A model generated the notes under the pieces. It was not told the origin of the DNA. It made no database searches and saw only the letters and a program-made list of their open reading frames with translations. From Candidatus Heimdallarchaeota archaeon (lineage in GTDB: Archaea > Asgardarchaeota > Heimdallarchaeia > Heimdallarchaeales > Kariarchaeaceae), in contig JASBSB010000006.1 of NCBI GenBank assembly GCA_030149205.1, forward strand, positions 372,001 through 436,000: DNA of 64,000 bases. The letters are read 5' to 3'. Positions 1,509 through 6,956 of this stretch are shown here, in pieces; position 1 is the first letter of the stretch; every line of letters starts with the position of its first letter. The position numbers and the translations under genes are program-made.

Positions 1509-2402
1509 TTAAAATCCATCAAAAGATGGAAGACTGGGTTTAAGCTCTTTTATATCCTTTACATCCTGTTCAGGTTTTAGAGGACCCTCCTGTACAAATA
1601 GTTCATTGAACAGTCTCTCGCTTGCTGTTTTGTATTGACGCTGACCAATGGTTTTTAGTGACACTTTCGCCAGTTCTTTTAGTACTCGTATATTCATAAG
1701 TATGGAATATTTATCAGCTAGTTTTTGGGTGATCATATCTTCAATCTCTTCGGTCTCAAGCTTCTTCTTTTTATCAGGGATATGGGCCTGGACAACTTCA
1801 GCTTCTTTGATTAGATTTTCTGTTACTATGTCTCCAACACGGGTTCTAAACTCACTTAGGGTCTCACCAATTGATAAAGCATACATAATTGAAGCTCCTT
1901 CTTTGTCTGTAATTGGCCCCATTATCTCTAAATTTTTCACCTTATTTGAGAATTCTTCGAGGAGGGTTGGAAAGTCCAGATCAAGGTCTTCTGCAAAATT
2001 TGATAAACAGTCCACATAGTTTCCTGTCAACCACTCTTCTGAGCCTTCTTTTAAAACTTCAACAACCTCATCTAAAATAGCCTGGGCTCCTAAAATCTTA
2101 AATTCAACCTTACCGATACGATCTGTGATGTAGTTGTCACCACGATAAAATTGTTGATACAAAAGGTCTTTAATGATATCTTCAAGCTCATCTAGAGTTA
2201 GAAACCTTTCACCAAGCTGTCCAGATTTCTGATTTAGATATTTGATATTTTTCTCAGTTTCGCGAGCTTTTTCTGCGATAAGAAAATGTCCTCTAATTCG
2301 AAAATTCATTTTGTCCTTTGGTTGGATATTTAACCGCTTTCTATATTTAGCAGGAACAACGATTTGACCCTTGTTACTTACTTTATGACCTTCTGACACC
2401 AT
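1509..2402 (-). CDS. AbrB/SpoVT-domain protein with long C-terminal region
   Basis: N-terminal KVSNKGQIVVPAKYRKRLNIQPKDKMNFRI is the swapped-hairpin AbrB motif. Confidence 0.7.
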   Translation of the reverse strand: MVSEGHKVSNKGQIVVPAKYRKRLNIQPKDKMNFRIRGHFLIAEKARETEKNIKYLNQKSGQLGERFLTLDELEDIIKDLLYQQFYRGDNYITDRIGKVEFKILGAQAILDEVVEVLKEGSEEWLTGNYVDCLSNFAEDLDLDFPTLLEEFSNKVKNLEIMGPITDKEGASIMYALSIGETLSEFRTRVGDIVTENLIKEAEVVQAHIPDKKKKLETEEIEDMITQKLADKYSILMNIRVLKELAKVSLKTIGQRQYKTASERLFNELFVQEGPLKPEQDVKDIKELKPSLPSFDGF

Positions 2403-5386: not shown

Positions 5387-5447
5387 TCAAATAATAATTT
5401 TGTGGAGGACTAAAAGAATTGTTGTGTATTGCACCTTAATTCTTCAA

Positions 5448-5570
5448 ATCCAGGTTCGGGATGTTGCTGGGTGGAGCACCTGCTCTATGACCGTGATCAA
5501 GTCACAGCGTGACGCCTTTCCCATACGCTCGCGCAGAATAGTACAGGGCTTTCCGAGGCAGGGCTTAACT
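5448..5570 (-). rRNA. 5S rRNA, circularly permuted gene order (3' half precedes 5' half)
   Basis: Minus strand reads AGTTAAGCCCTGCCTCGG AAAGCCCTGTACTATTCTGCGCGAGCGTATGGGAAAGGCGTCACG CTGTGA-CTTGA-TCACGG TCATAGAGCAGGTGCTCCACCCAGCAACATCCCGAACCTGGAT. All conserved archaeal 5S blocks are present but rotated; helix I, helix II (GAG CAGG / CCTG C CTC) and helix III (CCAG/CTGG) are all formable. Confidence 0.9.
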
Positions 5571-5634
5571 TTCTGGTAAGTTATTAAGCACCAATGAACT
5601 CGTAAGTTCGTTATAACATCCCAAGAAAGTTTCT

Positions 5635-5643
5635 CTATTTAAG
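5635..5643 (-). promoter_or_regulatory. Candidate TATA box for the permuted 5S rRNA gene
   Basis: Minus-strand CTTAAATAG about 60 nt upstream of the predicted RNA, in the intergenic region. Confidence 0.35.
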
Positions 5644-6464: not shown

Positions 6465-6956
6465 TTGACAACCTTAATGGAAATAGGAAATCAATGGCCA
6501 CTGATAGTTTTACATAATGTCAATGCTTCAAGCAAATGTACAGAATTTGTCAGAATTGGGTCAGCATTTGGGTTCAGAACCTTAATAATCACACAGGCGC
6601 AGGGATCAGCTGCTCAGAATGGGATTCCAAGTGCACAAAAATTAGCTCTCAAGAATAAGCTAAATTTTTTGGCCTTATATTCAGTTGAAGATGTAATTGA
6701 GCTTTTTAACCCTGAGCAGGTTGTACTGATTGCGCCCCCTCCCTTTGGGAAAGAAAATCTCTCACAAGGTGTTATTGATGAGATCAAGGCTCAAAAAACA
6801 GTGGTGGTTTTCGGAGGAAATGACCCAGGTTTGTCAAGAAAGGATCTGGATTTAGGAAGAACGGTTCAGTTGTCTGTTGGGGATATTGGTTCGATTGCCA
6901 CTCTATCACTTACCTTAGCCCTTCTAAAACATGGAAATAATCTATTGCCTGAGTAA
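6465..6956 (+). CDS. Conserved archaeal protein, possibly SPOUT-methyltransferase-like
   Basis: VVVFGGNDPGLSRKDLDLGRTVQLSVGDIGSIATLSLTLAL resembles a SPOUT-type C-terminal cofactor region. Confidence 0.45.
   Translation: MTTLMEIGNQWPLIVLHNVNASSKCTEFVRIGSAFGFRTLIITQAQGSAAQNGIPSAQKLALKNKLNFLALYSVEDVIELFNPEQVVLIAPPPFGKENLSQGVIDEIKAQKTVVVFGGNDPGLSRKDLDLGRTVQLSVGDIGSIATLSLTLALLKHGNNLLPE

Follow-up and report, generated by a model that had tools for sequence, protein, structure and literature searches.

A permuted 5S rRNA gene in Asgard archaea and its predicted maturation into a circular RNA

Can an archaeal chromosome carry a 5S rRNA gene with its two halves exchanged, and how would the transcript of such a gene mature? 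This question is raised by a locus in the window, the stretch of 64,000 nucleotides from a Candidatus Heimdallarchaeota genome that was analyzed here, for which an earlier note had claimed a circularly permuted 5S rRNA gene. Few RNAs are as conserved as 5S rRNA. In the full-text literature searched, which leaves most subscription papers and preprints outside, we found no case of a permuted or circular 5S rRNA in cellular genomes. We consider it probable, at roughly 87%, that the locus is a functional, permuted 5S rRNA gene whose transcript is cut at a bulge-helix-bulge (BHB) motif and ligated into a covalently closed 5S circle.

On the minus strand, the 3' half (AAAGUUAAGCCC...GGGAAAGGC) comes first and is followed by the helix I hairpin and then by the 5' half (CAUAGAGCAGG...CCCGAACCUGG), as the note had stated. 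From 5572 to 5448 the strand reads AAAGUUAAGCCC...GCGCGAGC...GGGAAAGGCGUCAC-GCUGUGA-CUUGA-UCACGGU-CAUAGAGCAGG...CCACCCAGCAACAUCCCGAACCUGGAU, and the gene is composed as follows:

5448-5572, minus strand: permuted 5S rRNA gene (covariance-model match, 134.5 bits; about 123 nt after predicted splicing)
5508-5569, minus strand: former 3' half of 5S, from GUUAAGCCC via helices V and IV to the 3' strand of helix I (sequence and partial HMM match)
5450-5507, minus strand: rest of helix I and former 5' half, i.e., helix I hairpin, GGUCAUAG, 5' strand of helix II, helix III with loop C (CCGAAC) and the end CUGG (sequence and partial HMM match)
5490-5508, minus strand: helix I hairpin GCUGUGA-CUUGA-UCACGGU, in which a 5-nt loop on a 7-bp stem seals the former 5' and 3' ends

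The score of 134.5 bits comes from a covariance model, R1, built from six permuted copies, one of which is the window copy itself. As an independent test we used an HMM whose 30 training sequences were conventional 5S genes of the phylum, none of them from the genome of the window; one of the 30 (L003) later proved bacterial. Once rotated, the window copy matched model positions 3-119 of this HMM with 37.6 bits, in agreement with the note's claim that rotation restores a near-consensus 5S. Left unrotated, it gave two partial matches, to positions 50-119 (17.7 bits) and then 2-50 (9.1 bits), i.e., in swapped order. The five related copies behaved in the same way, with scores of 34.4-45.4 bits after rotation and two partial matches in swapped order before it; all six rotated copies cover at least model positions 3-106. 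None of the shuffled controls, 20 per sequence, was listed by the HMM. A near-full-length match to 5S is therefore obtained after rotation only, and the 5'-before-3' order and the free helix I ends of a 5S gene are absent. The breakpoint coincides with a conserved AA that separates helix III from GUUAAG; the new ends that the note had placed between CUGG and AAGUU are supported. Judged by its sequence, the locus is a 5S rRNA gene in which the 3' half precedes the 5' half and helix I is closed.

The conserved structure points in the same direction. In the aligned copies 90.3% of the helix cells are paired, both partners have changed in 30 of 32 pairs, and compensatory changes occur in all five helices. 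The covariation score reached 0.738, as compared to 0.213 for shuffles and at most 0.152 for slid structures; this alignment was fitted to the model, and a free alignment of the six copies gives the same picture. The five helices are arranged round a three-way junction together with the loops GGYCAUAG, CCGAAC, and GUUAAGC, and unconstrained folding of the predicted circle yields the three-arm shape of 5S. The linear precursor strand (166 nt) shows no excess folding energy over shuffles (z = 0.69). Helix I, whose ends the note had described as joined in a hairpin, is 98.6% paired, with compensatory changes. Its cap measures 3-9 nt in 81 of the 82 copies scored (4 nt in 63, very often UUCG) and exceeds 9 nt in one, so that no remnant is left to excise at the former 5' and 3' ends. 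Three copies of family f7 are about 30 nt longer and carry an extra hairpin, located in the helix IV arm in L159 (G113) and L151 (G192) and in the helix I cap in L154 (G064); these are possible 5S expansion segments.

Does the organism have a conventional 5S gene as well? Rfam model RF00001 found zero 5S in the whole genome (3.3 Mb), whereas the same search, run as a control, detected 5S in 11 of 14 control genomes. The window locus is invisible to Rfam at the gathering threshold, and the two partial Rfam matches in swapped order that the note had expected did not appear even at E<=10. The permuted locus is thus the only type of 5S gene in this organism. Within the phylum, ordinary full-length 5S genes are present in five families (f8, f13, f15, f19, and f22), whereas in families with the permuted gene a conventional match is either a weak one that overlaps this gene or bacterial contamination. 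Apparent conventional genes in f7 (G089, G128) proved to be bacterial contamination with a bacterial 23S alongside, and those in f4 (G070, G118) overlap contig-end copies of the permuted gene. Conversely, permuted-model matches of 28-40 bits in f13 and f19 are cross-matches that overlap the conventional gene. The L003 contig, a contaminant binned with the Asgard genome G089, also contains a group I intron in its bacterial 23S (2054-2368, minus strand).

The locus could alternatively be a pseudogene, an assembly rearrangement or a mobile fragment in a genome that holds a divergent conventional 5S elsewhere. The metagenome-assembled genomes (MAGs) are incomplete (93.5% for the window's own genome), which leaves some room for this explanation, but we regard it as extremely improbable: the arrangement is maintained with covariation in 21 families, and conventional models give nothing beyond weak matches over the permuted gene or contaminants by bacterial 23S. 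Misassembly, which the note had named as a potential refutation, fails as an explanation because the arrangement is not only kept across these families but also occurs twice (L057 and L095) in the complete circular genome CP084167.1.

BHB motifs are the substrates of the splicing endonuclease. Neither this motif nor the phylum-wide distribution of the gene was part of the earlier note. At the window locus, the sequences flanking the breakpoint are predicted to pair as a BHB:

5570-5576, minus strand: leader side, core strand CCAG (5576-5573) and 3-nt bulge AAA (5572-5570), pairing with CUGG at 5453-5450
5447-5453, minus strand: trailer side, core strand CUGG (5453-5450, identical with the helix III 3' strand) and 3-nt bulge AUU (5449-5447)
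5577-5580, minus strand: outer helix, leader side CUUA, weak in the window copy
5442-5446, minus strand: outer helix, trailer side UGAAG with one bulged G, weak in the window copy

The core helix is formed by the 4 nt of leader before the breakpoint and the 4-nt 3' strand of helix III; it is bordered by a bulge on either side, and the outer helix lies beyond. This core covaries: it is CCAG/CUGG in the window, CAAG/CUUG in G112, CGGG/CCCG in G091, and CGAG/CUCG in another relative, and by family CGUG/CACG in f9-f12, f17, and f18, CUGG/UCAG in f7, and UCAG/CUGA in f2. Cognate leaders and trailers pair at 10.15 of 12 positions on average, as compared to 7.44 +/- 1.23 for partners mixed between families. 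A BHB with a 4-bp core is found in most families, including f2; upon inspection, no clear motif was seen in f3, f24, f25, and f27. The outer helix is paired at 5 of 8 positions in the window copy, at 7 (G106) and 4 (G021) of 8 in the same genus, and at 7-8 of 8 in many relatives, where it is often perfect over at least 8 bp (e.g., GGUAGUAUCG/CGAUACUACC in G003). In several families the leader bulge comprises 2 nt instead of 3 nt.

The usual cleavage site in a BHB lies between bulge bases 2 and 3. Cutting the canonical 3-4-3 motif of f9-f12, f17, and f18 at this site would produce ...CACGGA|AGU(U/C)AAG, which is the order of conventional 5S; in f9 the junction would read ...CACGGA|AGUUAAG. In the window copy, with the predicted junction ...CUGGAU|AGUUAAG, and likewise in f1 and f4-f7, the ligated RNA would exceed conventional 5S by one nt. 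Family f2 (Heimdallarchaeum and relatives) has the same BHB further upstream, e.g., in the L061 leader CTAGTAAGG-TCAG-ATA-TACATCTGGATGCGTTCCAGATGATCGGG, with a segment of 28-29 nt containing a conserved hairpin between the BHB cut site and AAAGUUAAG. In this family the 5S may thus be expanded at the breakpoint, or its maturation may require a further step.

Based on this motif, we propose the following maturation pathway. A precursor would be transcribed from the gene's own TATA promoter, and the 3' strand of helix III would first pair with the leader and thereby form the BHB. The splicing endonuclease would cut both bulges, at AA|A and AU|U, and RtcB would join the two new ends, ...CCUGGAU to AGUUAAG.... 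The freed CUGG could then pair with its proper partner in helix III, and the product would be a covalently closed RNA of about 123 nt that folds like ordinary 5S. Because the gene has helix I sealed from the start and contains no linker in need of excision, this circle is probably the mature form that is bound by uL18 and uL5. The sequence itself establishes the gene, its permutation, the lack of a conventional copy and the BHB pairing, whereas we infer the cutting and ligation of the transcript and the use of the circle in ribosomes.

Two other fates of the transcript were considered. A nuclease other than the splicing endonuclease might trim the flanking stem of a real 5S gene product and leave a linear, permuted RNA with open ends at the junction of helix III and loop B. 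Such an RNA could fold, given that helix I is sealed, and its linear form does adopt the 5S structure in silico; moreover, brown algal mitochondria possess a permuted 5S (Valach et al. 2014, as cited in PMC10085705; also PMC11528492). Simple trimming, however, has no need for flanks that in most families form a BHB whose 4-bp core covaries, and the genome encodes both RtcB and splicing endonuclease, so we judge this outcome unlikely. We attach still less credence to a scheme in which the ends are ligated and a later cut in helix I turns the circle into a linear 5S of the conventional form. Permuted tRNA genes mature in this manner according to the summaries in PMC10085705 and PMC7758197, but the 5S copies offer no linker to remove, and the loop of helix I is kept short and stable in almost all of them. 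A circle produced by the splicing endonuclease and ligase remains our preferred reading, although the weak outer helix of the window copy, the families with an unclear BHB or a 2-nt leader bulge, the extra nucleotide in f1 and f4-f7 and the unremarkable folding energy of the linear precursor speak against it.

The window's own genome encodes RtcB, two splicing-endonuclease genes, and the 5S-binding protein uL18 (family PF17144). A candidate promoter element lies upstream of the gene:

5636-5643, minus strand: putative TATA box CTTAAATA, 71 nt upstream of the 5S match

This distance implies a putative transcribed leader of several tens of nt. A perfect TATA-like 8-mer at -130..-45 is present in 37 of 88 copies, as compared to 10.4 +/- 2.6 in shuffled upstream DNA. 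Downstream, an HflX-type GTPase gene (PF01926, PF13167, PF16360; 4136-5386, minus strand) adjoins the 5S gene on the same strand. A tRNA gene at 2846-2930 on the plus strand, to which ARAGORN assigned the anticodon gtaa and no type, has about 14 extra nt in its anticodon arm, which are probably an intron and hence another substrate of the splicing endonuclease. A marginal SNORD36 match in a DUF2122 reading frame (6661-6715, plus strand; 31.4 bits, E 0.49) is probably due to chance.

Asgard archaea are the closest known relatives of eukaryotes. The earlier note had suggested looking for the arrangement in relatives, and DNA similarity revealed it in five of them, from the genus, the family and, with one genome, the order. 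Running R1 over 228 genomes of the phylum gave matches in 114, of which those in G007, G024, and G039 are weak cross-matches over conventional genes. The permuted gene is thus present in about 111 genomes from 21 families (f1-f7, f9-f12, f17, f18, f20, f21, f23-f27, and f29), with Heimdallarchaeota, Kariarchaeota, and Freyarchaeota among the carriers. The MAGs of this set are incomplete; two sequences that agree with the permuted form are the single contig of G003 (1,418,269 bp) and the complete chromosome of Candidatus Heimdallarchaeum endolithica PR6 (G044; CP084167.1, 3,326,783 bp), which has the two copies mentioned above. When all genome contigs were scanned with a strict pattern, the matches other than chance ones came from Asgard records only. 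Pattern matches in Blautia, Rheinheimera, Merdimmobilis, and Amylibacter have neither an R1 nor a 5S match and were dismissed as chance.

Mapped onto an RpoB tree, gene order (permuted or conventional) requires five changes, and the permuted form appears on both sides of the deepest drawn split. This suggests that the permuted state is ancestral in the phylum; we leave it at a suggestion because the root is a midpoint with a long branch. All permuted copies share one breakpoint, which favors a single origin. In principle, tandem duplication of a permuted gene could regenerate a conventional one, and no remnants of tandem intermediates were seen beside the conventional 5S genes. A tandem permuted pair does exist in G171 (L135, 251-368 and 408-525), about 40 nt apart and each with its own BHB, and tandems of this kind are a plausible route between the two orders. 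In f4, permuted copies are located at contig ends with differing neighbors (C90, C132, and C106 in G070; C365, C374, and C302 in G118; L163-L168); the gene is therefore multi-copy in this family and breaks assemblies. Tentatively, and at slightly less than even odds, we extend these observations to the phylum: the ribosomes of most Asgard lineages, among them the Heimdallarchaeia as those nearest to eukaryotes, would contain a covalently closed, circular 5S, the permuted gene would be ancestral, and the conventional genes in f8, f13, f15, f19, and f22, and perhaps also in the line to eukaryotes, would be secondary reversions or replacements.

The model predicts that the closest known relatives of eukaryotes have ribosomes with a circular 5S. 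The permuted gene also provides a new trait for Asgard phylogeny, and annotation or genome-quality rules that demand a 5S match wrongly score its carriers as lacking 5S. Permutation explains why existing HMMs failed to predict 5S genes in the complete Heimdallarchaeum genomes, as the authors of these genomes reported (PMC8813620).

How does the Asgard gene relate to known systems? Once it is rotated, its conserved positions, five helices and loops are like those of conventional archaeal 5S (RF00001), from which it differs by the opposite order of the halves, the sealed helix I and the BHB of leader and trailer. The brown algal mitochondrial 5S (Rfam RF02547, mtPerm-5S) has the swapped order found here but is organellar. 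We know of no BHB pathway for it. RF02547 gave no match in any of 57 genomes, all of the window's own class, and none in the control genomes, so that support for its absence is weak.

The permuted, circular SRP RNA of two Thermoproteus species, whose gene had previously been called missing, is likewise a universal RNA with swapped halves, sealed former ends, a TATA box, and a short leader (PMC4731332). There, too, leader and trailer form a BHB, and circularization by endonuclease and ligase has been demonstrated experimentally by RNA-seq in Thermoproteus tenax (PMC4731332), whereas for 5S the circle is predicted; on the other hand, permuted 5S extends over 21 Asgard families. Circular 23S rRNA occurs in archaeal ribosomes, and archaeal processing of 16S and 23S, but not 5S, often involves circularization (PMC12918454). 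In circular 23S (PMC12918454) and in the permuted 23S of Pyrococcus (PMC7758197), BHB, splicing endonuclease, and ligase circularize an rRNA that is used by the ribosome, as proposed here, from genes of normal order, unlike the swapped 5S. If the circle is real, 5S joins the archaeal RNAs that are circularized by the tRNA-splicing enzymes.
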